In this document: in pieces, positions 2,585-18,962 of the stretch
Layout: every line of letters starts with the position of its first letter
How positions within the stretch are numbered: the first letter of the stretch is position 1
Source of the DNA: a virus
DNA length: 24,499 bases
IMG/VR virus record: IMGVR_UViG_3300017788_000163
Location: 1 to 24,499 of that record
Direction: 5' to 3' (one strand)
The notes under the pieces: generated by a model
Database searches by the model: none
What the model was told of the DNA's origin: nothing
What the model saw: the letters and a program-made list of their open reading frames with translations, nothing else
Program-made: the position numbers and the translations under genes

Positions 2585-4603
2585 TTATCGGTTAAAACGA
2601 CTTGCCAATTGATTTGCGATATTGTTTACGAAATCATTATCATAACCCAAATCGCTATTCGTGAAACCACCTTTCATATTAGAATTTGATTCATTAAGAG
2701 AAGTAGTTCTGCCTTTTGCTGACTCTAATCCTCTTGTTGACCAGAAGTTTCTAATTTGATATGGTGTATCCAAACGATACATTTTAGATTGTGCAACAAT
2801 ACGATTCTTCTCATCAGTTGTCAATGACTCCCAAATTGGAGAATATTCTACTGGCATTTCCTGAATCCACTTAGGGAGATTGGAATTGTCATTAGAAAGT
2901 GCAGTGTTCCAAATTCTAATTACATCGCTTTCGCCAAACCAAACACCTTCATTCAATGCATTAACGACTTTTTGTTTTTCAGTCTCATCAAGTGCAAGGA
3001 AATCATTTTGTTTCGCTTCGCTAAGTATAGACATAAATTGATAGTTATTCTTTTTCGCTACGCTTTCCACTTTTTGTTTTCTAATGGATTCGAGAATAGC
3101 ATCAATTCTGTCGCCGATTGGTTTAACCTCGCCGTTTGAATTATACAATGTAGCTTCATTTGAAGATTCATTAATAGATTCATTAACAGGGTTACCAATA
3201 TTTTTCTGTGTAGTTACATTTTCAGCAACATATTCTGTATAACGGATTGCGTTATCCAAATGCTCTGAAATATAGTCACTATGCTTAATTGAATTATCGA
3301 GGTTTTCTGCAAGATAATCTGCATACTTCTGTGTTTTATCTACATTTTCTGCGATATAATCTGCGTATTGTAAACCTGTATCCAATTTTTCAGCCAAATA
3401 ATTTGAATAGTTGATGTTCTTATCCAAATTCTCTGCTAAATAATTAGTATAGCTTTGTGTCTTATTAACGTTTTCTGCCAAATAGTTGGAATAATGTAGA
3501 CTCTTGTCTAAGTTTTCAGCAACATATTCGGAATATCTAATCGCTTCGTTGATTTTCTTAGCTTGAGATTCAACTTCTTCGCCAACGTGCTCAGTATATT
3601 GAATACTCCTGTCCAAGTTTTCAGCCAAGTAATTAGTATAAGTTTGTGTTTTGTGAACATGCTCTGCAATGTGCTCAGAATAATCGATTGAATCATTAAG
3701 ACTCTCTGCGATATAATTTGAGTAATTGCGAATGTTTTCGGTATTCTCCGCAAGATAGTTCGAATAATCGATGACTTGGTCGAGTTTTTCTGCCAAATAA
3801 TTAACATATTTGGTCATACGCTCGAACTCTCTAATGAAACTATCAGAATTAGAAGTTGTTACTTCTTCTGTTTTCATTTCATCAAGACGTTTTGAAAAAC
3901 GCTCGAACTCTTTGCGGATCTCCTTTGAATAGTCATTCAAGACTTCTTCGGTTACATAACGTGTCTGATCCATTTTAGAGGGTTGATTTTTATCTTGCGG
4001 GTCGAAAACATCAATAGCATCTTCGACACTTGCATATTTTGAACTCATATCATATATCTTAACTGAATCGCTATTGGAAAATCCAAGTGATTCATTCAAT
4101 CTTGTTAACTGTGCATTAGCAAAACCAGGGTCTGCAACTAAATCGTATGTAAAAATTCTTTTAATCTTTACAGATTTGTCTGATTCTACAACACCAGCTG
4201 CTCTTGAAGATATAGAAAGCTGAACTCCATCATCAATCAAAGCGCGGGCATCTCTACCTTTGGATGTAGAAAGCAAACGAACTTTACCTACAACTTGACG
4301 ATTATCTTTATCATACTCCAAACCTTCAATAAGGTGTGATGCTTCAGAAAGTCTAACTTCAAAATCTTGAGGGTGGTCTAATTGACCAGTCAAATTTCCA
4401 AGTTTGATTTTCTCATTAAGATAATCTAAATGCGGAAGATACTCTCTTTCCTCATAGATTCTCTTATTATTATTCTCTACACCAAACTGACAAAAGACTC
4501 CTTCCAATACATAATTCTTATCAGAGGACTCTTTAACTTTAAGTTTGTGATTACTGTTCTCTAATATGAGAACTACTTTTTGACCATCGAGTGTCATATC
4601 CAT
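2585..4603 (-). CDS. Prohead protease fused to repeat scaffold (gp21/gp22-like)
   Basis: Residues about 28-170 match the T4 gp21 serine protease: an EGVFCQFGVENNNKRIY segment, the catalytic His in GQLDHPQD and the catalytic Ser in SISSRAAG. The domain ends near RLNESLGF, which contains LNE|S, a plausible self-cleavage point. After a linker (about 175-265) comes a 14-unit tandem repeat (266-463) of the type YSNYLAENLDKSIQ, then a C-terminal 209 residues containing further sites (LSE|A, LNE|G, LNE|S). In T4 the protease (gp21) and scaffold (gp22) are separate adjacent genes; here they appear to be one 672-residue polypeptide. The N terminus also carries ILE15|N. It is predicted to build the prohead core, then be activated and degrade itself and trim the shell. 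ATG at 4603 is used; a second ATG at 4597 is possible. Confidence 0.88.
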   Translation of the reverse strand: MDMTLDGQKVVLILENSNHKLKVKESSDKNYVLEGVFCQFGVENNNKRIYEEREYLPHLDYLNEKIKLGNLTGQLDHPQDFEVRLSEASHLIEGLEYDKDNRQVVGKVRLLSTSKGRDARALIDDGVQLSISSRAAGVVESDKSVKIKRIFTYDLVADPGFANAQLTRLNESLGFSNSDSVKIYDMSSKYASVEDAIDVFDPQDKNQPSKMDQTRYVTEEVLNDYSKEIRKEFERFSKRLDEMKTEEVTTSNSDSFIREFERMTKYVNYLAEKLDQVIDYSNYLAENTENIRNYSNYIAESLNDSIDYSEHIAEHVHKTQTYTNYLAENLDRSIQYTEHVGEEVESQAKKINEAIRYSEYVAENLDKSLHYSNYLAENVNKTQSYTNYLAENLDKNINYSNYLAEKLDTGLQYADYIAENVDKTQKYADYLAENLDNSIKHSDYISEHLDNAIRYTEYVAENVTTQKNIGNPVNESINESSNEATLYNSNGEVKPIGDRIDAILESIRKQKVESVAKKNNYQFMSILSEAKQNDFLALDETEKQKVVNALNEGVWFGESDVIRIWNTALSNDNSNLPKWIQEMPVEYSPIWESLTTDEKNRIVAQSKMYRLDTPYQIRNFWSTRGLESAKGRTTSLNESNSNMKGGFTNSDLGYDNDFVNNIANQLASRFNR
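3215..3808 (-). repeat. 14-residue tandem repeat within scaffold (14 units)
   Basis: The 42-bp units encode the pattern Y-[ST]-x-[YH]-[LIV]-A-E-x-[LV]-x-x-x-x-x. There are twelve 14-residue units, one 21-residue unit (YTEHVGEEVESQAKKINEAIR split over two lines of reading, residues 336-356 approximately) and a final 9-residue partial unit, covering residues 266-463. The long unit equals three heptads where the others equal two, so the seven-residue phase is preserved. Eleven of the fourteen units contain a strict [LI]-x-E tripeptide; the other three have Val in place of Leu/Ile. The DNA copies are diverged, so the repeat is old and kept by selection on protein. Confidence 0.92.
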
Positions 4604-5673: not shown

Positions 5674-6405
5674 CTATATATCTATAACTTCCTTAGAAAA
5701 ATGCTTATGTTTTTCCCAATCTTCTTTTATTCTACAAGGAAATTTATAATTATGTCCCCATTTTTCTTCTATGTTCTTAAGGCTTAGTCTTTTTTCATAT
5801 AATTTTCTTCTATCTTCCAATCTTTCCATTCCACCGATGTTTTTACAATGGAGTAGTTTCAAGCTTGGGTATTTATCATAAACAATTGAACCGCTTGGAA
5901 AACAAGCGTGACACCCATGCTTATAGTTGATTTCATCAATAAGCTTTGGGTCAAATATAGGAGTCTTATCATACCAAGTATCTCTAATTCCTTTTGTTAT
6001 TTGCTTCCAAATTGGAGCATCTATATTCGGCATTTCATCAGACCACATGGAATATCCTGTGGTCTGAGGTATGCTTATATTTTTTCTTTTACAAGACTCT
6101 AAAAATAATTCTAAATTCTCATGATAAACAAATTCGTCTAAATCAAGAACACAGACCCAATCATAATCTTTGAATTCTTTCCAAACATTATTCTTAATGT
6201 CTATGTAAACATCATCTCTTATTTGACCATCTGTTTTATAGACTCTTCTTTCAACAAGAGGATGAGAATCACAAATATCAGCTGTTCTATCATCTGATTC
6301 ATTATCATATACTATAATCTTACTGCATATTCTTTCATAATGCTTTAAGAAAACAGGTAAAAGCTCTTCTTCATTCCAAGCTATGGTTATGCAAACCATG
6401 TTCAT
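5674..6405 (-). CDS. Glycosyltransferase, GT-A fold (GT2/GT92-like)
   Basis: This 243-residue protein has an N-terminal ITIAWNEEELLPVFLKHY segment followed by IIVYDNESDDRT and a metal-binding DLD at 88-90 (CVLDLDEF), the layout of the Glyco_tranf_2_4 group. It should transfer a sugar from a nucleotide-sugar donor; donor and acceptor cannot be read from sequence. The C-terminal half has several His and Cys residues (GCHACF) and is rich in aromatic residues. Its ATG overlaps the stop of the upstream gene in an ATGA, implying translational coupling. It ends with TAG, which argues against stop-codon reassignment in this phage. Confidence 0.82.
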   Translation of the reverse strand: MNMVCITIAWNEEELLPVFLKHYERICSKIIVYDNESDDRTADICDSHPLVERRVYKTDGQIRDDVYIDIKNNVWKEFKDYDWVCVLDLDEFVYHENLELFLESCKRKNISIPQTTGYSMWSDEMPNIDAPIWKQITKGIRDTWYDKTPIFDPKLIDEINYKHGCHACFPSGSIVYDKYPSLKLLHCKNIGGMERLEDRRKLYEKRLSLKNIEEKWGHNYKFPCRIKEDWEKHKHFSKEVIDI

Positions 6406-6911
6406 GGCATTCTGCCTACATGCTTAATGATAATATCCTTTACAAATTCATCAACTGAAACTTCATCTCTAATAAGATTCTCCCAGCACTCCTTAAACAA
6501 AAAAGGAACTGGATGGATTCCTATGTTAATCCATATACCAGAACACATATTTTCTTCATCTTCTGCTTCTACACAAGAACCAACTGTATGGTCAATTCCA
6601 GAAGCAAGAAGAAACACAAGTACCATATCCATAGCCTTGGCGATTTGAACAAATGTTCCTTCTTCTGTATCTCCTTCTTCTGAAATAAATTTCGCAGCGT
6701 GAATAACAGAAAGAACATAATCATCTAAGTCTATGTTTTCTTCTATGAGCAAATGCTCAGCTTCTTCTAAATCTATTTCAAATGATTCCATTCCTTTCAA
6801 ATTAACTAAAAGGATTGGGGTGTCTTCGTCATCATGAATTCTTTCAAATGAAGAATTTTCCCATTTGTGCTTAAAAGCATCCATTATATACTCACTTACA
6901 TCTACTTTCAT
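6402..6911 (-). CDS. Unknown acidic protein inside glycosyltransferase cluster
   Basis: I do not recognise this family. It is small and acidic with predicted helices, a Cys pair region (SCVEAEDEENMC) and a hydrophobic stretch (MDMVLVFLLASGI) too short and too charged nearby to be a certain membrane helix. The longest frame starts at 6926, but the internal ATG at 6911 forms an ATGA overlap with the stop of the upstream glycosyltransferase, the same junction seen at 6405 and 7612, so I prefer 6911 (169 residues, starting MKVDVSEY). Coupling on both sides suggests that it works with the glycosyltransferases, perhaps as a partner or adaptor; this is inference only. Confidence 0.75.
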   Translation of the reverse strand: MKVDVSEYIMDAFKHKWENSSFERIHDDEDTPILLVNLKGMESFEIDLEEAEHLLIEENIDLDDYVLSVIHAAKFISEEGDTEEGTFVQIAKAMDMVLVFLLASGIDHTVGSCVEAEDEENMCSGIWINIGIHPVPFLFKECWENLIRDEVSVDEFVKDIIIKHVGRMP

Positions 6912-7612
6912 TGTCCTACTCTCCATGTTATATTATCTATTATATGGTCTCTGTTGGGAACATCGTTTGAAATATGGTAAATCCAATTTGTTTGATGTTC
7001 TAAGTTAGAAGGATACATATAATTCCACGTTTCGTCAATAAAGCTAACAAAGGGATTATCTAAATTTGGACTTATGCATCTGGAGGCATAATTAAAAAGA
7101 GCTTGCTCATAAATTGGATTGAATCTATCATAATTCAATTCAGGCATGATTGCTCTAACCAAATGACACAGTCTTCTCATGATAGGTACTTTTGCAAGCA
7201 TGAGTCCAGTGTTAAAATATATATCGGGTTTTTCGACTATTTCCAGCATTTGTCTTTGTTGATTTATTCTCAACAAATTATACATATGCTGATTTAATGT
7301 ATTTGGATAATTTCCAATTCTTTCATTTCCATTTTGAACTGCTACAATCTTATCTTCTTGAATTAATTCAAAAGGATTGGGAGCATCACTTCTAATAATA
7401 CAATCTGCATCAAGAAACATCATTTCATCATAACCATAAGCAAGTAAATCTAATATTGCTTTATTGAAAGTTACTCCAAAATAATCTCCATAGTATTTAG
7501 TAGAAAATGCGAAAAATTCTGCACCCCATCTATTTGAGGCATCAATCATAGACTGTCTTGAATTTTCTCTTTGAAAATTATTTATATCTATTGTTATAAG
7601 AACTCTTCTCAT
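6908..7612 (-). CDS. Glycosyltransferase, GT8-like, copy B
   Basis: A GT-A type glycosyltransferase with VLITIDINN at the N terminus, a MMFLDADCII metal-binding DAD motif and a later DIYFNTGLMLAKV segment typical of GT8-like enzymes, followed by a YEQALFNY motif. The frame can start at 7624, but the ATG at 7612 gives an ATGA overlap with the upstream stop and places the DxD at residues 68-70, exactly where it lies in the neighbouring paralogue; I therefore choose 7612 (234 residues). The two adjacent genes share N-[AS]RQS, RWG, DAP.PFE, YEQALFNY and ETWN blocks, so they arose by tandem duplication and have diverged strongly. Confidence 0.84.
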   Translation of the reverse strand: MRRVLITIDINNFQRENSRQSMIDASNRWGAEFFAFSTKYYGDYFGVTFNKAILDLLAYGYDEMMFLDADCIIRSDAPNPFELIQEDKIVAVQNGNERIGNYPNTLNQHMYNLLRINQQRQMLEIVEKPDIYFNTGLMLAKVPIMRRLCHLVRAIMPELNYDRFNPIYEQALFNYASRCISPNLDNPFVSFIDETWNYMYPSNLEHQTNWIYHISNDVPNRDHIIDNITWRVGQ

Positions 7613-8337
7613 CTCATTCTCCAATCATAATCATTGATTGTGTGTTTTCTAACCCAAAAGTTAAAACCTGTAAAATGCCAAACATAATCTGTCATTCTTG
7701 GTTCTTCTATGAGAGGTTCTAACCTGTTCCAAGTTTCTTCAGTTAAGTGTAAATCATCAAATCTATATGCTTGAAGAACATAATTAAAGAGGGCTTGTTC
7801 ATAGTGGGCTGAATAAGCATAAGCCGAACGTTCAGGTGTTAGAGGTAAAGCATTTTCTATTGCTTTGAAAATAGTTTTGTGTCTTTTGATGTTTATTATG
7901 AAAAATCCAGAATTAAAGAAATTATCTAAGAATCTTTCTCTCGATACTCCCCATCTGAATTGTTCTTCAAGAACATGCCAATATTGTTCTTGAACTTGTC
8001 CTTTAACTACTTTCCACATCTCACTATTGTGGTCATGATTCTGTGGATGAATATCTAAAACAGCAACAAACTTTTGGGAATCTGTAAAAACTTCAAATGG
8101 ACTTGGAGCATCAATATGAATAAGCATATCTGAGTCAAAATAAACAGCTCTCTCATATCCTTCTATTTTATCAAAAGAACAAACTTTTGCAAATGAAGGG
8201 TAAAGCGACTTGTCGAATAAAGTTCTGATTTCTAAGAAATCACAACCCCATCTATCCGCCGCTGATGAAAGGGACTGTCTGGCATTATCAGACATGTGTC
8301 CATTTATATTAACTGTCCAAACTAAGTTTTTGCTCAT
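7609..8337 (-). CDS. Glycosyltransferase, GT8-like, copy A
   Basis: A 242-residue paralogue of the next gene. Shared landmarks are NARQSLSSAADRWGCDF, a YFDSDML metal-binding DSD at 68-70, IDAPSPFEVF, a FNSGFFIINIKR segment, HYEQALFNYVLQ and EETWNRLEP. The DxD and the NxG-type acceptor-side segment fit retaining GT8-like chemistry, but no donor can be assigned. It starts five bases after the upstream GT2 gene and its TGA overlaps the next start. Having two diverged copies side by side suggests sequential addition of two sugars, or two acceptors. Confidence 0.84.
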   Translation of the reverse strand: MSKNLVWTVNINGHMSDNARQSLSSAADRWGCDFLEIRTLFDKSLYPSFAKVCSFDKIEGYERAVYFDSDMLIHIDAPSPFEVFTDSQKFVAVLDIHPQNHDHNSEMWKVVKGQVQEQYWHVLEEQFRWGVSRERFLDNFFNSGFFIINIKRHKTIFKAIENALPLTPERSAYAYSAHYEQALFNYVLQAYRFDDLHLTEETWNRLEPLIEEPRMTDYVWHFTGFNFWVRKHTINDYDWRMR

Positions 8338-8342
8338 GTGGA

Positions 8343-8960
8343 TTAAATATGAATACCTAAAAGCTTTTCAACTCTAACATGTCTAAATTCTTTTGAAAGG
8401 GCTTCGTAAGTATAGCCATCTGAGAAGAATCCACCTTCAGATACCCAACCTACTTTTTCAATAGCTTCTCTTTTTACAACAACTTGTAAAGTATCTATTC
8501 CACCAACAACAATTGGCCATCCTTGTAGAATTTGAGGAGGTTGACCTACCCATGCTTGAAGAGGCCCCATGTGAACAATTTGACAAACTGCAAATCCTAT
8601 TTCAGGCCCAGTACCTTCAAGAGCACTTACCATTTCTTCCAAGAATTCTGGGAATATGATATTATCATCATCTAAAAAAGCAAAGTATTTACCTTTAAGC
8701 CAAGGCATCGCTAATTTTCTTACGGATGCTCCATAATCAGCATTATTTTCTTCTAATTCAAAAAACTTTCTTTTTGGATTATTTTTTGAAGTTTCTGTGA
8801 AATATTCTTTTAGTTTTGGGTCTGGGCCATCAGAAACAATAATATGTTCCCAATCTGAAAATGACTGCCAATCTACGCAAGTCATACAACGGCTAAGCAT
8901 CTTGATGCCTCTATTCCAAGTAGGAGTCAAAACGCTAATTGTTGGGTTTTTTGTTTTCAT
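8343..8960 (-). CDS. Glycosyltransferase family 2
   Basis: A compact 205-residue GT2 enzyme. It begins with ISVLTPTWNRG, the usual first strand of GT2 GT-A folds, then HIIVSDGPD, a NNADYGASVRKLAM segment and the metal-binding FAFLDDDN (DDD at 97-99). It ends soon after a GGFFSDGYTYEAL segment, so it has the catalytic domain only, without a membrane anchor. It is the first glycosyltransferase in the cluster and begins 38 bases after the methyltransferase homologue. Donor and acceptor are unknown; the adjacent fibre gene makes a virion protein acceptor attractive. Confidence 0.86.
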   Translation of the reverse strand: MKTKNPTISVLTPTWNRGIKMLSRCMTCVDWQSFSDWEHIIVSDGPDPKLKEYFTETSKNNPKRKFFELEENNADYGASVRKLAMPWLKGKYFAFLDDDNIIFPEFLEEMVSALEGTGPEIGFAVCQIVHMGPLQAWVGQPPQILQGWPIVVGGIDTLQVVVKREAIEKVGWVSEGGFFSDGYTYEALSKEFRHVRVEKLLGIHI

Positions 8961-8998
8961 TTGAAAATCTCTCTTATGGTTTTATTCCCATTATAGGA

Positions 8999-10330
8999 TT
9001 ATCTTCGATTAAAGTTCAACCCTGATTGTATTAATTTTTTAGCCCCTTTATTTATTGTTTCTTCGCTTATTGCATTTTTAATAGATTTTCCAACCGCTGA
9101 TGCTACTTTTACATTTGTTGCTCTACTTGCATAACCCCATGCAGTTCTCCAACCATCGAGTGAAATAAAATTATCAGGAAAACCTTGTAATCTATATAAT
9201 TCCAAGCTCGTTAATCTTCTAAGTCCTTTGTGATTACACCTTTGTCCGTTTGGAAGAAACTCAGGTGCTTTCTCTGGTTGACATATAATATTCTTATCCC
9301 ATCCTTTTCCACCATAGATAATTGAATAAGCTTCTGCTTCTAAATCTAATATCTGAGAACTGAATTTATATCCTAATTTTTTATTTTTTTCATCGTATTC
9401 TTCTAAAAAATTAAAATGCTTTTCGCTAATATAATATTTGTCTTCTGGGTTATAATCCACAATATCTTTTAATTTCCAAGTTCTTTTTTGAGGTCTTGGC
9501 CATTGAAATTCTATAGCCGAAATAGGATTATCAAATGCCACAAACCAAGTTCTTGTTCTTCTTTGTGGAACTCCATAATTCAGAGCATCGAGAATAGCTG
9601 GATTTACATTATAATAACCCGTTGCTTCTTGTATTGTTCTAAGAACAACAGCAACAGTTTTTTCAAAACCTTCTTCTCTTAAAGTTGTTTTGCTTTCTAT
9701 AAGAATTGCCTTTGGTTGTATTTTATTGATGATATTGATAAGTCTATGATAATCTGTATCGTGAAGTTCGTCTAAAGATATTTTACCCTCTTGAATAAGT
9801 GGAATTTGTTGAATGTCCAAAGAAGAAATTAAAACATCAGCTTTTGGAAAATCACCCTTTATCCATTCAGGATGAACATAAGGAACCGTTCCAAAATTAG
9901 TTGTATAAATATTTGACCATTTCTTTTTTTGACTTTCAAGAGAAAAAATACATCTACCCCCTTCATTCATTAAACCAAGAGTAGCCCCGCCTATATTACA
10001 ATAAACATCAGCAAATGTAAATTCAAATTCTTTTCTTTGTGGGAATGGTATGTCATAATCTATTAAAGAATTGTCTTGAATGCAATCTTCAATGATTTTT
10101 CTTATTCTTGGTTTTAATCTAATAGAATTAAATTCTTTGTAAAATTCTTCAAACCCCAATACAGATTCAATCTCACCTATTCTGTTTAATAGATGAGTGA
10201 ATGTAGCTTTTTCATTGCTAATTCTTCTCCCTTTTTTTAGTTTTCCTATTTCTTCTGAGGAGAATGTGTCTATACTTAAATACGATAGGAGTTCTCTTAG
10301 TGAATACAAGTTACCACCGAGGTTGTTCAA
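8999..10330 (-). CDS. Cytosine-C5 DNA methyltransferase homologue, catalytic Cys absent
   Basis: The 443-residue frame matches the C5-methyltransferase fold: motif I (DVYCNIGGATLGL, 108-120), motif II Glu (LESQKKKW), motif VIII (QRRTR, 256-260), motif IX (RRLTSLELYRLQGFP) and a motif-X-like ATNVKVASAVGKSI. Motif IV, normally GGPPCQ with the nucleophilic Cys, reads SSLDIQ (169-174), putting Ile at the Cys position, and the ENV of motif VI reads ESK (212-214). The frame is uninterrupted, so this is a conserved protein rather than a recent frameshift, but it should not methylate cytosine by the known mechanism. Residues 1-105 are an extra N-terminal region. No ATG occurs before residue 121; TTG at 10330 or TTG at 10309 must start it, unless it is reached by frameshifting from the upstream gene, which it overlaps by 20 bases. 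Confidence 0.8.
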   Translation of the reverse strand: MNNLGGNLYSLRELLSYLSIDTFSSEEIGKLKKGRRISNEKATFTHLLNRIGEIESVLGFEEFYKEFNSIRLKPRIRKIIEDCIQDNSLIDYDIPFPQRKEFEFTFADVYCNIGGATLGLMNEGGRCIFSLESQKKKWSNIYTTNFGTVPYVHPEWIKGDFPKADVLISSLDIQQIPLIQEGKISLDELHDTDYHRLINIINKIQPKAILIESKTTLREEGFEKTVAVVLRTIQEATGYYNVNPAILDALNYGVPQRRTRTWFVAFDNPISAIEFQWPRPQKRTWKLKDIVDYNPEDKYYISEKHFNFLEEYDEKNKKLGYKFSSQILDLEAEAYSIIYGGKGWDKNIICQPEKAPEFLPNGQRCNHKGLRRLTSLELYRLQGFPDNFISLDGWRTAWGYASRATNVKVASAVGKSIKNAISEETINKGAKKLIQSGLNFNRR

Positions 10331-10613: not shown

Positions 10614-13331
10614 TTACTTTCCTATTTTTTGCCATCTGTTCATAGTAGTATCGTAAATAAACTGAGCAACTGAGTCATCATTTATGACATGGTTTAATCC
10701 ATCTACCATTCTAATTCTTTCAGATGCAGAACCTGCTACACCATCTTCGTGGCTAAATGTCATAGTTTGACCTGTTTGATTCGATACATATAAGATTTGA
10801 CCATCTGAACCTGCGGATATTCCCACAACAGTCACTGACCCTATCGGAGCTCCACTAATAACAGCGTATGTATTTGATATTGAAGTAATGGTAACCGATG
10901 TTGAAGAAATAACTTGACCCCCAATAGTTATAGCTGAAGAAGGGCCTTGGTTACCTTGAACTCCTATTATACCTTGAACACCTTGCGTACCTTGAGTTCC
11001 CGTTGAACCAGATGTACCATCAGTTCCTTGGTTACCTTGGTCACCTGTTAATCCAGTCAAACCTTGATTTCCTTGAGTTCCGAGTGTTCCATCTGTTCCT
11101 TGACGACCTTGATTGCCTTGATTTCCAACTAAACCAGTTAGGCCATCAGTTCCTTGGTTACCTTGGTCACCTGTTAATCCAGTCAAACCTTGATTTCCTT
11201 GAGTTCCAAGTGTTCCATCGGTTCCTTGACGACCTTGGTTGCCTTGATTTCCAACTAAACCAGTTGGCCCTATATCTCCTTGGTTACCTTGATTACCGAC
11301 CAAACCAGTTGGGCCATCAGTTCCTTGGTTACCTTGGTCACCTGTTAATCCAGTCAAACCTTGATTTCCTTGAGTTCCGAGTGTTCCATCTGTTCCTTGA
11401 CGACCTTGATTGCCTTGATTTCCAGGGTCGCCTGTTACCCCATTCGTTCCTTGATTACCCTGATTACCTTGATTACCAACTAAACCTACTGGCCCATCAG
11501 TTCCTTGGTTGCCTTGATTACCAACCAAGCCAGTTGTACCCTGATTTCCTTGATTACCAACCAAACCAGTTGAACCTTGGTTACCTTGATTTCCAACCAA
11601 ACCAGTTGGGCCGTCAGTTCCTTGATTACCTTGAAATCCTTTACTACCAAGAGTTCCTTGGTTACCTTGATTACCTTGATTTCCAACCAAACCAGTAGAG
11701 CCTTGATTTCCTTGAGTTCCTGTTGAACCTGTTGGGCCAGCACCGCCTTGATTTCCTTGACCGCCTGTTAATCCTGTAGAGCCTTGATTACCTTGATTAC
11801 CAACTAAACCTGTTGAGCCAGCTTCGCCTTGATTTCCTTGACCGCCTGTTAATCCTATAGAACCTTGATTTCCTTGATTACCTACTAAACCTGTTGGGCC
11901 AGCTTCGCCTTGATTTCCTTGACCGCCTGTTAATCCTATAGAACCTTGATTTCCTTGATTTCCAATCGAACCAGTTGGGCCAGTACCGCCTTGATTTCCT
12001 TGGTTACCTAAATCACCAGCTCTTGCAAAAGAAACTACAAGCTCATCATCATAAAGAAATGCACCAGAATGGTCAACATAAGAAACTGTTAAATCATACC
12101 AAGTACCAGAATCTGTTACATCAGTAAGTAAGAAGTGGGCAAACTTAGCTTGGTCATTTCTATCAAATACTCTAATAGAACCCATTATTGGATTCGTGCT
12201 ATCATCTAATGTTTCAATCCAAGTACTTGCGGTAGCAGGTGGGTCAAAACTATCATCGCTCAAACTAATATTAGTTACTGATGTATAATTAGAATCATCA
12301 AATGCTATGTATCCACTCGATACATTTGATGGAACACTTGTGGTTGTGTCAAAAGTATAAGCTCTTGAATCACCTACTAAACCTTTATCACAACACTCGC
12401 CTTGATTACCTTGATTTCCAGTATCGCCTTTAGCTCCTTGGGGGCCTTGAGCTCCTGACCCTGGCCCTTGATTACCTTGAGGCCCAGTATCTCCTTGTTC
12501 TCCTATACCTCTCGGGCCTCTTTGTCCGTCAGGCCCTTGCGCACCTTGATTACCTTGATTACCAGTATTTCCTTGAGGGCCTTGAACTCCTTCTCCTTGA
12601 CGACCCTGATTGCCTTGATTACCAGTTCTGCCTTGAAATCCTTGTGTTCCTTGAGGGCCTTGAACTCCTTCTCCTTGACGACCTTGATTGCCTTGCGGGC
12701 CTTGATTACCTTGATTTCCCTGTGGGCCAGATATTCCCTGATTTCCAGCTTCACCCTTTGCTCCTTGTGTACCAGAACCTCCTCCAAGAAGACCTTTAGC
12801 ACCTTCATATCTATAAACAGTTACACCTACATTTGAAGGCGAACTTGTTGAAACAAATTCAGGAAGACCTTTGAAAAAAGTTAAAACTCCCGATTGGTAA
12901 TTAAATACCCAATCATTTTGGCCAACTGGAACTGGAACCCAAGCAGAAACTGGGGTTTCTCTTCTCCAAACTTTTACTTGATATTCTACACCAAATTGAT
13001 TAGGAGGAATACAATCATATACATCAGAAGTTGAATCATAAAAAGAATGCTCACTTCCTTCTACATAGTCAAGCTCTCGTTGGTGTAATTTGGTTATTAT
13101 CAAATCACCTGAGTCGCTATATGTAGTTCCATCTGCAATAGCATCGGATTTAAGAGGATTAGACGCAGGAATTCTATCAGAATCTATCCAAATTTTATCT
13201 TTAGAAAGAGGGAGGCGTTCATCAAATGACTCCTCAAACCCCTCTAAATTTATGTTAGTGGTTGCTTTGTTTGACTGAGTTTGATTATAGCTCAGATGCG
13301 ATTTTTGATTCGGTGTTAATCCGCTACTCAT
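10614..13331 (-). CDS. Collagen-like tail/virion fibre protein
   Basis: A 905-residue fibre with five parts: an N-terminal domain (1-182) with a DWVFNYQSGVLTF segment typical of phage fibre attachment regions; a first Gly-X-Y block (about 183-312); a globular beta-rich insert (about 313-437, including WIETLDDSTNP and DLTVSYVDHSG); a second, longer Gly-X-Y block (about 439-796); and a C-terminal head (797-905) with a GQILYVSNQTGQTMTF strand and a terminal RWQKIG. The triplets are dominated by GNQ, GPT, GLT, GLV and GTD. It should form a trimeric rod exposed on the virion. Many Thr in the Y position resemble GPT triplets that are O-glycosylated in the Bacillus exosporium protein BclA, and four glycosyltransferase genes lie downstream. 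No Pro-rich stabilisation is seen, so trimer stability must come from other contacts. Confidence 0.9.
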   Translation of the reverse strand: MSSGLTPNQKSHLSYNQTQSNKATTNINLEGFEESFDERLPLSKDKIWIDSDRIPASNPLKSDAIADGTTYSDSGDLIITKLHQRELDYVEGSEHSFYDSTSDVYDCIPPNQFGVEYQVKVWRRETPVSAWVPVPVGQNDWVFNYQSGVLTFFKGLPEFVSTSSPSNVGVTVYRYEGAKGLLGGGSGTQGAKGEAGNQGISGPQGNQGNQGPQGNQGRQGEGVQGPQGTQGFQGRTGNQGNQGRQGEGVQGPQGNTGNQGNQGAQGPDGQRGPRGIGEQGDTGPQGNQGPGSGAQGPQGAKGDTGNQGNQGECCDKGLVGDSRAYTFDTTTSVPSNVSSGYIAFDDSNYTSVTNISLSDDSFDPPATASTWIETLDDSTNPIMGSIRVFDRNDQAKFAHFLLTDVTDSGTWYDLTVSYVDHSGAFLYDDELVVSFARAGDLGNQGNQGGTGPTGSIGNQGNQGSIGLTGGQGNQGEAGPTGLVGNQGNQGSIGLTGGQGNQGEAGSTGLVGNQGNQGSTGLTGGQGNQGGAGPTGSTGTQGNQGSTGLVGNQGNQGNQGTLGSKGFQGNQGTDGPTGLVGNQGNQGSTGLVGNQGNQGTTGLVGNQGNQGTDGPVGLVGNQGNQGNQGTNGVTGDPGNQGNQGRQGTDGTLGTQGNQGLTGLTGDQGNQGTDGPTGLVGNQGNQGDIGPTGLVGNQGNQGRQGTDGTLGTQGNQGLTGLTGDQGNQGTDGLTGLVGNQGNQGRQGTDGTLGTQGNQGLTGLTGDQGNQGTDGTSGSTGTQGTQGVQGIIGVQGNQGPSSAITIGGQVISSTSVTITSISNTYAVISGAPIGSVTVVGISAGSDGQILYVSNQTGQTMTFSHEDGVAGSASERIRMVDGLNHVINDDSVAQFIYDTTMNRWQKIGK
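11021..11423 (-). repeat. 106-bp near-identical repeats in fibre gene (3 copies)
   Basis: Copies lie at 11021-11126, 11147-11252 and 11318-11423. The first and third appear identical over all 106 bases; the middle copy differs at three positions. Each encodes the series GNQGRQGTDGTLGTQGNQ followed by GLTGLTGDQGNQGT. Such similarity implies recent duplication or gene conversion. Confidence 0.88.
11745..11987 (-). repeat. 81-bp (27-residue) tandem repeats in fibre gene (3 copies)
   Basis: Units start at 11745, 11826 and 11907 and the same opening words recur once more at 11988. Each codes nine Gly-X-Y triplets (GLTGGQGNQGEAGPTGLV then GNQGNQGSI). The register of the triplet is kept exactly. 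Confidence 0.85.
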
Positions 13332-15679: not shown

Positions 15680-16261
15680 TTATTGGTTAGACTCATCTTC
15701 ATCTTCATCAGGAATTACATTAGGGTCAATTCCATTTTCTAATGAAGCAAGTTTAGATTTCATGTTATTTAGATGTTGAGCATCTTTTCTTTGCATATTT
15801 ACAGCTTCTGAGATAGGAGTTAAAATATTCTCATGGAAAGCCTTTGCTGATTCAAAACCAATTCCTTCTGCTGATTGCAGAGTATAAAGAATAGGCTCCA
15901 AAAGAGTTCCTGTAATTTCAAAAGTTTGTGTTTCTCTGCATTGATTAATAGCCGCTTCTATTTCTCTATGGATAGACACAAGAACGAGAGCGTCTGTAAA
16001 TCTCCATTTTGCTTTATCTTCAATAAAGGTTTTAATCTCATTACCAAAATTAAGACCTCCATGAACAGGATATAACTTCAAAACCGCTTCGTTTTCTAAA
16101 CGATGTACTTCTCCAGCAAGAAGCTCAGCTCTTTCTTGGATGCTTAAATTTACATCATCCCAAGGCCCGTTCAAACTATTATTAGAATTTGTAGCTGATA
16201 CTTGAACTACATCTTCAATCACTGATGTACTTCCATCGACCATATTAATAACCTTTGTCAT
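15680..16261 (-). CDS. Unknown helical protein, first gene of minus-strand block
   Basis: This 193-residue protein has a low-complexity N terminus, a long central region that is probably helical (SIQERAELLAGEVHRLENEA, then about 70-165) and a highly acidic C terminus (DEDEDESNQ). No family is recognised. It is the first gene transcribed leftward from the divergent non-coding region at 16262-16976, so its promoter should lie there. An acidic tail on a helical protein is common among phage assembly chaperones, but nothing specific supports that role here. Confidence 0.68.
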   Translation of the reverse strand: MTKVINMVDGSTSVIEDVVQVSATNSNNSLNGPWDDVNLSIQERAELLAGEVHRLENEAVLKLYPVHGGLNFGNEIKTFIEDKAKWRFTDALVLVSIHREIEAAINQCRETQTFEITGTLLEPILYTLQSAEGIGFESAKAFHENILTPISEAVNMQRKDAQHLNNMKSKLASLENGIDPNVIPDEDEDESNQ

Positions 16262-16401
16262 CTAATGACTCCTATTATAGAAAAATTGTTTACATTCATT
16301 TATGTATTATAGTTATATATCGAATTTTGTTGAATATGTTTACTAAATGATTGTTTTTAAGTCTAAATTAAAATTAAAAGTTACTTCTAAAAAATCACCT
16401 C

Positions 16402-16870
16402 GGTTACCCTATGTGGAAAACTTTTTTTGCTCAGGATGTAACCTTTTTGCCATCTCGATTGTTATATAGTATTATGGGCTACGGTATCTTAACCTGAGCA
16501 CCTAAGAAAAGCTTAGGGTTTCTGACCTTGAAATCCTTAAATGATAATGGTTTCCCTATCATTATTATCCCCCTAAACTCTTCCAAAGAGCTTAAACTGC
16601 TATCAACTCTGGTATCCTAAATTACCAGTTCTCTTATCTTTTGTTGTTTTACTTTAAAATTACTAAGTTATTATGTTATCATCTGGCTTAAGTAATTGAT
16701 TACAAAAAATAAAAAAATATACAAAAGATTACATATAAGGATATGTAGGACACATTCATATCCCTTGGTTGGTTTAACCTTGAAAGCTTGGGCTTCCTAA
16801 GTTTACATGAGTTAAATTGGGTGAAGTGTGCCCAATCTGAAAGATTGAGCCATTTTTGCGCATTTAACTC
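16402..16870. ncRNA. Candidate structured RNA in divergent non-coding region
   Basis: The 715-base stretch 16262-16976 has no convincing gene. Between 16402 and 16870 I find a dense series of complementary segments: 16402-16407 with 16438-16443; 16428-16435 with 16493-16500 (interleaved with the first, an H-type pseudoknot arrangement); hairpins 16501-16517, 16540-16563, 16574-16594 (one mismatch) and 16609-16628; a bulged 10-bp stem 16658-16667 with 16687-16697; 16739-16745 with 16757-16763; and a 9-bp stem 16809-16817 with 16862-16870 enclosing two mutually exclusive hairpins (16816-16821 with 16831-16836, or 16833-16838 with 16842-16847). All are Watson-Crick, so strand cannot be told from GU pairs. 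AT-rich DNA gives some stems by chance, so this is a candidate only. The flanks (16262-16400, 16871-16976) probably hold promoters for both directions. Confidence 0.4.
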
Positions 16871-16976
16871 TTTTATTTTACCCTATGAGCTCTATATTTT
16901 GTTTTATTTGTATGTAATGAAAGATATATACCCAAGCGGTTTAGACTGCACACACATTACTTTACATAATACAAAA

Positions 16977-17375
16977 ATGAGCTATAACCTTTTTTTAGAT
17001 GATAATAAAAATCCAAAAGATATATGGTCAGAGACAAAAAGCCCAGAATATGCAGTATATAATTGGGTAACAGTTAAAGACTATGAATCTTTTATTGATA
17101 TAATCAAAGAACAAGGACTACCTACAAGAGTATCATTTGACCATAATCTAAATGAAGAGCATTATAGTTTCGATGGAAAGAAAAAAATATCATATGATGT
17201 TTTTGAATATAAAACAGGATATGATTGCGCTGTATGGTTAATTGAATATTGTATAGATTATTCTGAAACCTTACCTCTATGCAAAGTTCATTGCGATAAA
17301 GGCAAAGGAAAATCAAATATAGAAAGCCTCTTAGAAAACTTCATTAGTTATCAGAGCAAATTAAAGAAGAAATGA
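16977..17375 (+). CDS. Cyclic-phosphate-processing receiver-like domain protein
   Basis: The frame is open from 16788, but the first 63 residues look like translated non-coding DNA, and the recognisable domain starts at ATG 16977 (132 residues). The order of motifs, NLFLDDNKNP (paired Asp 8-9), VSFDHNLN (D55, H56), TGYDCAVWLIEY and VHCDKGKGKSNIESL, matches the receiver-like family described as cyclic-phosphate-processing (LFLDDxRxP, SFDHDLG, TGxxxxxWL, HSxNxxGxxNM). These are cytoplasmic, phosphate- or nucleotide-handling domains linked by comparative genomics to RNA repair; the reaction is not proven. It is the first gene rightward of the candidate RNA region. Confidence 0.7.
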   Translation: MSYNLFLDDNKNPKDIWSETKSPEYAVYNWVTVKDYESFIDIIKEQGLPTRVSFDHNLNEEHYSFDGKKKISYDVFEYKTGYDCAVWLIEYCIDYSETLPLCKVHCDKGKGKSNIESLLENFISYQSKLKKK

Positions 17376-17894: not shown

Positions 17895-18512
17895 ATGAAG
17901 AATATATTGAATTATGACTTTTTTTCTTTCTTAAATGAAAGCACAGTTAGCTTTGATTGGTCAGATGTTGAAACATTTGATGAAACCGAAGTAACAAATG
18001 AAAAAGTTCATATTATACATACAGGTCACGCTTCAAAGTATAGATATGATATGAATAGTATAATCGATAAGAAAAACTTAGAAGATTTCATTACAATAGC
18101 ATTGCCTACAATGTTAAATTATTATTATTCTTATTCTAAAACAAAAACATCATTTACTATACAAAGTAAAAATTTCCCATATATTCTAAGATTAGAATTA
18201 TCACCTGCTGAAGCGAAAGGGACAAGTCTATCGGTGGTTGGTGATTTATATGATTTTGATAGAATAATGAATACTGAATATGATGAGCATTTTAGACATT
18301 TCTCTACCCTTCCAAACAGAAAGGGAACAATCATTAAAGATTACACAACTAATAATAGCATAAGAATTGAACCTGGTGATTACATCTTCAAAATAATCAC
18401 TGTCAATAGAAGAGAAGATTTCAAAGCATATAGTAAAGATATTGTAATAGACTTGGATTCTTCTTTGTCAGAATTAGTAGTTGAACCAAAAAAAGAACTT
18501 GAACTAAGCTAA
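17895..18512 (+). CDS. Unknown protein with capsid-targeting-like leader
   Basis: The 205-residue product begins MKNILNYDFFSFLNE|S, with L13-N14-E15 matching the prohead-protease consensus after a short aromatic/hydrophobic leader. The rest is a mixed alpha/beta domain of unknown family (central SFTIQSKNFPYILRLELS; DYIFKIITVNRRED near the end) with an acidic tail. No enzyme motif is seen. Like T4 internal proteins, it might be packed into the prohead, clipped and injected; if so the mature protein would start at S16. It is 11 bases downstream of the coiled-coil gene. Confidence 0.72.
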   Translation: MKNILNYDFFSFLNESTVSFDWSDVETFDETEVTNEKVHIIHTGHASKYRYDMNSIIDKKNLEDFITIALPTMLNYYYSYSKTKTSFTIQSKNFPYILRLELSPAEAKGTSLSVVGDLYDFDRIMNTEYDEHFRHFSTLPNRKGTIIKDYTTNNSIRIEPGDYIFKIITVNRREDFKAYSKDIVIDLDSSLSELVVEPKKELELS

Positions 18513-18527
18513 AAATAAAAAAAGAAA

Positions 18528-18962
18528 ATGAAAATTTTTCAAGATTACCTATCTGAATCAGTTGAACTAATGAGAGATTCTCTTCATTATGTTACCACTC
18601 TTTTGGAAGAAAAAGAAATACTTTCAAGACTTATTAGATTTGAAAGAGATTCTATTGGAGATTTAACATCAATTTCATTTGATGTTTCTGACATAAGTCC
18701 TAAGAAAAGAGAAATTGTTGTAAAGAATCTTCAAGAAAATGGATTCAAAAATGCAACTATAGAATTTCATGATTGGAATAAGCTTTGGTTAATTTCTATC
18801 GAAAGAATTAGGATTCAAAGAAAGAGCACTGCAAATTCTTTGGTTAATATTTTCTATTCTTCTTTGACAGAAAAGCCAGAAGCTCCATCTACTCAAGAAA
18901 AACCAGAAGAAGATGGTAAAAAGCAGTCAATGCTTATACGAATTATGGGAAAAAATAAATAA
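18528..18962 (+). CDS. Candidate internal (packaged) protein, unknown
   Basis: The N terminus MKIFQDYLSE|S is very close in layout to the capsid-targeting sequence of T4 internal protein III (MKTYQEFIAE|A): Met-Lys, aromatic, Gln, acidic, aromatic, aliphatic, then x-E. That places cleavage after residue 10. The body has a helical part and a ferredoxin-like alternation (ISFDVSD, IVVKNLQENGF, ATIEFHDW, LWLISIERIRIQRK), followed by a Pro/Glu-rich linker and a short basic tail (KKQSMLIRIMGKNK). No family is recognised. Its start is 15 bases after the previous stop. Confidence 0.74.
   Translation: MKIFQDYLSESVELMRDSLHYVTTLLEEKEILSRLIRFERDSIGDLTSISFDVSDISPKKREIVVKNLQENGFKNATIEFHDWNKLWLISIERIRIQRKSTANSLVNIFYSSLTEKPEAPSTQEKPEEDGKKQSMLIRIMGKNK

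Follow-up and report, generated by a model that had tools for sequence, protein, structure and literature searches.

The window, as we call the whole stretch of DNA that was analysed (24,499 nucleotides), is the 24.5-kb record of a T4-like phage and encodes a Gp23 major capsid protein, a prohead protease and a terminase. The terminase has its nearest counterparts in uncultured giant phages, Sphingomonas phage PAU and Tenacibaculum phages, which makes a host of the Bacteroidota type plausible. At the junction of virion genes and replication genes lies a 715-bp gap (16262-16976) that holds no ORF of at least 60 aa, barring the upstream read-through of the right-hand ORF; the gene-free region of 715 bases reported in a sequence-only reading of this DNA is thus borne out. 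The locus is composed of the following features, where G004 is a 200-kb relative:

15680-16261, minus strand: flanking gene without known function; synteny conserved in the comparison with relatives
16262-16976, no strand: intergenic stretch separating divergent operons; relatives keep its place and its size (complete copies, 598-715 bp)
16314-16321, minus strand: GATATATA late-type promoter motif of the left operon, a gap-enriched motif in G004
16412-16420, minus strand: DnaA-box-like nonamer TTTTCCACA, with a counterpart in some relatives
16437-16469, plus strand: predicted ECF-type promoter, with TGTAAC (16437-16442), a 17-bp spacer and TGTTATATAG (16460-16469)
16470-16860, plus strand: predicted noncoding structured transcript of about 390 nt, both ends predicted; fold z of the body -4.1
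16634-16727, plus strand: T-rich then A-rich tract; long A-U helix in the RNA, possible unwinding element
16824-16850, plus strand: AAGTGTG and covarying terminal hairpin (arms 16830-16837 and 16843-16850, loop TGAAA)
16923-16930, plus strand: GATATATA late-type promoter motif of the rightward operon, gap-enriched and aligned among relatives
16977-17375, plus strand: flanking gene for a cREC_REC protein (cyclic-phosphate processing receiver; Pfam PF20274, E 1.7e-15)

Two other parts of the window caught our eye by inspection: a 905-aa protein with long collagen-like GNQGNQG repeats (10614-13331, minus strand), probably a tail or fibre protein, and a run of glycosyltransferase-like genes beside a possible cytosine methyltransferase (5674-10330, minus strand, with the methyltransferase at 8999-10330).

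Our comparison set comprised five independent relatives, mostly fragments (L002, L003, L004, L005, which equals L006, and L007), and so six independent sequences with the window. Their terminases are 79-82% identical, and a gap of 600-800 bp is kept at this place in all five. The same two genes border it in L002, L003, L004 and L005/L006; the L007 contig begins inside the gap and retains the part upstream of the cREC gene. In G004, the gap at this locus is the sole one of at least 350 bp. The gap is mostly diverged among relatives, and two blocks, A and B, stand out in the alignment. The element is absent from the distant relatives that we found through the terminase (about 40% identity), the cREC gene or the left gene, and BLAST of the gap against 50,697 phage records gave short chance matches only. 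Matches in L013 and L014 were rejected as A-rich stretches within genes, and the gaps upstream of cREC in L195 and L203 were rejected because they proved to contain tRNAs and genes that are small or unclear.

The genes on either side seem to carry promoters of their own. In G004, 47 of the 64 copies of GATATATA lie in gaps, where 3.7 would be expected, and most have the orientation of the gene that follows; GATATATA(G) is the apparent late-type promoter motif of the clade (G004 and the window) and is sometimes followed by a small leader hairpin, as at about 16936-16949 after the rightward copy. It is distinct from the late motif of T4, TATAAATA, which shows no gap enrichment in this clade. Since the two copies that flank our gap point outward, the left one at 16321 and the right one at 16923, the DNA between them looks like a separate rightward transcription unit.

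Block A, which would start this unit, looks like a promoter. Its consensus, TGTAACC-TTTTG.C.T.TC-N4-(C/T)GT..TATAG, is conserved among relatives, and in six phages TGTAAC-N16/17-(C/T)GT..TATAG occurs once per genome. The -35 element (AAC) and the 16-17 bp spacer are present in all copies; the -10 element reads CGT in L007 only and TGT in the other five. The counterpart of the DnaA-like nonamer, TTWTCCACA, lies 3 bp upstream of TGTAAC in L002, L004 and L005, has one mismatch in L003 and is absent from L007. ECF-type promoters of Flavobacterium psychrophilum have a CGT -10 box (PMC9723704), and G004 encodes an ECF-type sigma factor (PF07638, above its cut-off). The same arrangement is found in an unrelated 168-kb phage contig, G006: it has 45 copies of TGTAAC-N16/17-CGT, of which 39 fall in gaps. 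Most precede a gene by 30-90 bp, and spacers of 12-14 or 18 give no TGTAAC...CGT site at all. Several of these sites share a CTTTTGCCTT.TC spacer with block A, and directly upstream of the first site lies an ECF-sized sigma gene (4017-4580). G006 therefore looks like a phage that runs many genes with its own ECF sigma factor.

Some observations on promoters of this type stand apart from our locus. G006 (IMGVR_UViG_3300031521_000012, loci L226-L234) has two ECF-like sigma genes. Directly downstream of one of its TGTAAC-N16/17-CGT promoters are about 390 noncoding bases (L036 478-868, that is, G006 18169-18559; moderate folding with z -1.7, no Rfam match), possibly another phage noncoding RNA. 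In L195 (2606-2979), TGTAACAAAATTTGAAAAAAAAACGTACATTG, a TGTAAC-N17-CGT sequence, lies just upstream of a four-tRNA cluster, with a cREC gene further downstream.

Block B, common to the relatives, consists of AAGTGTG and a hairpin that lies about 370 nt downstream of block A. In this hairpin both sides have changed in 4 of the 8 pairs, its covariation score is reached by 0 of 500 shuffles, and RNAalifold recovers it. The body is poorly alignable and fast-evolving: among the six independent sequences covariation is confined to the terminal hairpin, and RNAalifold on the body gave no other supported helix. An intrinsic terminator would be a G+C-rich stem with a U run directly behind it; the hairpin is followed by a U-rich stretch in L003 and L007 and more weakly so elsewhere, a terminator scan made no call in the window, and not every copy of the unit ends in a terminator of the classical kind. 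In L007, the unit is tandemly duplicated at the contig start (1-297 and 411-708; 298 bp at 94.6% identity, 411 bp apart), and since the duplicate copy ends just past block B, blocks A to B would seem to be one unit.

Based on these findings, we propose, with a probability of roughly 60%, that the gap holds a self-contained transcription unit, directed rightward and spanning about 16470-16860, which makes a folded noncoding RNA. A sigma factor of the ECF type, encoded by the phage or by its host, would act on the promoter at 16437-16469, transcription would run rightward from about 16470 to give an RNA of about 390 nt, and the transcript would end at or near the covarying hairpin (16830-16850). 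A “new large RNA” had been one of the suggestions in the sequence-only reading; a distinct noncoding unit with its promoter block, its covarying hairpin and separate flanking promoters fits that suggestion, at a size of about 390 nt and not 715.

Folding agrees with the dense hairpins described there. Perfect stems of at least 6 bp number 19; dinucleotide shuffles average 10.7 +/- 3.3, and 2% of them have as many. Stems with at least two G/C number 10, against 3.6 +/- 1.9 (0 of 150 shuffles reach 10). The folding energy of 16380-16920 lies below shuffled controls on both strands (z = -3.62 on the plus and -3.64 on the minus strand; 0 of 100 shuffles as low). Since random 340-base windows of these genomes already have a mean z of about -1.0, the real excess is about 2.5 units. 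The transcript body, with a z of -4.1 on the plus strand, is likewise beyond background and equally low on the minus strand, and six relatives have a mean z of -2.4 against this background (p 0.002). Near-equal folding of the two strands is what inverted repeats would give. The possible pseudoknot did not hold up: its letters are present (GGTTAC/GTAACC and TGCTCAGG/CCTGAGCA), but the 2 crossing stem pairs compare with 0.65 expected and are matched by 16% of shuffles, which is chance level, and its first arm is not conserved among relatives. Moreover, both 5' arms precede the point where transcription is predicted to begin, so that a single transcript started there would lack them and be unable to fold this way. 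We also rejected a long-range pairing of the 5' CCTAG with an apical CTAGG, which had seemed good on inspection but for which cognate pairs were no better than non-cognate ones (p 0.36). In the same test the A-U helix was favoured at p 0.008, which is not significant after 28 tests.

If the rightward RNA were instead a long 5' leader acting in cis on the operon that begins at the cREC gene, as had also been suggested, the promoter would point the right way, and a strong terminator is indeed not present in all copies. This reading is less likely because the rightward genes are preceded by an GATATATA motif of their own at 16923. All relatives have an GATATATA or TATATAG motif between unit and gene, and in L007 the unit is duplicated together with its hairpin, upstream of a second promoter; we consider a leader improbable. 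More improbable still is a functional RNA from the minus strand, or a role of the inverted repeats as DNA, whether as protein sites or as a cruciform. We take the plus strand solely from the promoter, since the two strands fold equally well and two C.A mismatches in the hairpin become G.U pairs when read on the other strand; both points would suit the minus-strand explanation. At the right end of the gap, however, no late-type promoter motif points leftward, and a DNA binding site would keep its letters rather than covary.

As to what a rightward transcription unit might do, our leading candidate, held tentatively, is a transcription-primed replication origin like oriF and oriG of T4, in which the RNA would be a cis-acting primer or R-loop former: transcription through the very weak T/A duplex would open the DNA and leave an RNA primer from which replication would start. 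In T4, oriF and oriG each combine a promoter with an unwinding element located downstream of it, and three active origins of this phage are found at a switch of transcription direction and base bias (PMC3016281). By its letters alone, our locus has the oriF-type layout of a promoter followed by an A+T-rich unwinding element, and few duplex stretches in these genomes are less stable than the T/A tract. The gap lies where transcription diverges, the only one of its size in the 200 kb of G004, and the cumulative GC-skew minimum of that genome (179054) is about 240 bp past the right end of the gap (178231-178816), which thus lies just left of the minimum and at most about 800 bp away. Although gene orientation explains most of this raw minimum, the gap is also the best-fitting switch point in G004 when gene strand is removed and 4-fold and third-position GC skew is used, in a fit over a 4-kb grid supplemented with the gap, in which the grid neighbours rank next and a second switch point lies near the contig end. 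Against this, the 4-fold A/T skew of G004 does not back the gap as a switch point, and the strand-corrected skew is significant in G004 only, not in the shorter G001, G002 and G003 or the window. Genes for DNA polymerase B, a gp44-type clamp loader and a 5'-3' exonuclease start 7-16 kb rightward, in a block that also encodes ribonucleotide reductase; the exonuclease is of the family to which T4 RNase H belongs. The DnaA-like nonamer in the gap would suit an origin but is missing in L007; a DnaA-box cluster was not seen (no gap has more than one TTWTCCACA, and L007 lacks it), and we found no direct-repeat iterons in the gap. The earlier mention of an origin is compatible with several circumstantial facts, and an origin stays a candidate. 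The hairpin speaks against it. T4 R-loops require no specific sequence (PMC3016281), so a conserved 3' hairpin is left unexplained by an origin: a primer needs none 370 nt downstream, and an RNA that has a function of its own, or a terminator, would account for the hairpin better. Next after the origin we therefore rank, as somewhat more doubtful, a trans-acting structured regulatory RNA that would bind host or phage RNA or protein without a DNA-level role; both can be true. Such an RNA would fit the unit's own promoter class, distinct from the late-type promoters, and the covarying hairpin with its conserved loop, and the promoter before the tRNA cluster of L195 indicates that promoters of this class can drive stable RNAs. 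Its fast-evolving body without another supported helix and its restriction to one narrow clade speak against it. The transcription unit itself has the most of our confidence, an origin less, and a trans-acting RNA comes after that.

To our knowledge, origins are unmapped for most large environmental T4-like phages. The fullest form of our proposal, which we regard as rather unlikely, is that an ECF-sigma-driven folded phage RNA of a new class doubles as the primer of the main replication origin, with a conserved hairpin at its far end and a fixed place at the virion/replication junction in a T4-like clade. If the transcription unit is as we propose, the locus would be a defined, testable candidate for the start of replication in these large T4-like phages, or would represent a new phage RNA family, and one promoter of an unusual class would be tied to one locus per genome.

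Among known systems, the unit resembles ROOL and GOLLD, the former of which had been raised as a comparison on size, in being noncoding, structured and phage-borne. It differs in being shorter, in its poorly conserved body, in having no tRNA island (the window, loci L002-L007 and the 200-kb relative are all free of tRNAs) and in its lack of an Rfam match: covariance models at the gathering score, including ROOL, GOLLD, HEARO and OLE, gave 0 matches in the window and likewise none in the 200-kb relative and others, and at E<=10 the gap region gave no meaningful match. With T4 oriF and oriG it would share an unusual promoter with an upstream box, an A+T-rich weak duplex downstream, a site at the switch of transcription direction and base bias, and T4-like replisome genes nearby; as an origin it is a candidate drawn from sequence alone, and the unit is longer (about 390 nt), ends in a conserved covarying hairpin and has an ECF-type promoter instead of a MotA-type one. 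The ECF sigma promoters of Bacteroidota have in common with block A the AAC in the -35 element, the 16-17 bp spacer and, in L007 and G006, the CGT-type -10 element, whereas most copies here read TGT and the use of an ECF sigma factor is predicted. ColE1 RNA II is a folded primer RNA made beside its origin; as proposed here, the RNA of this phage clade would by analogy be another folded primer next to an origin.
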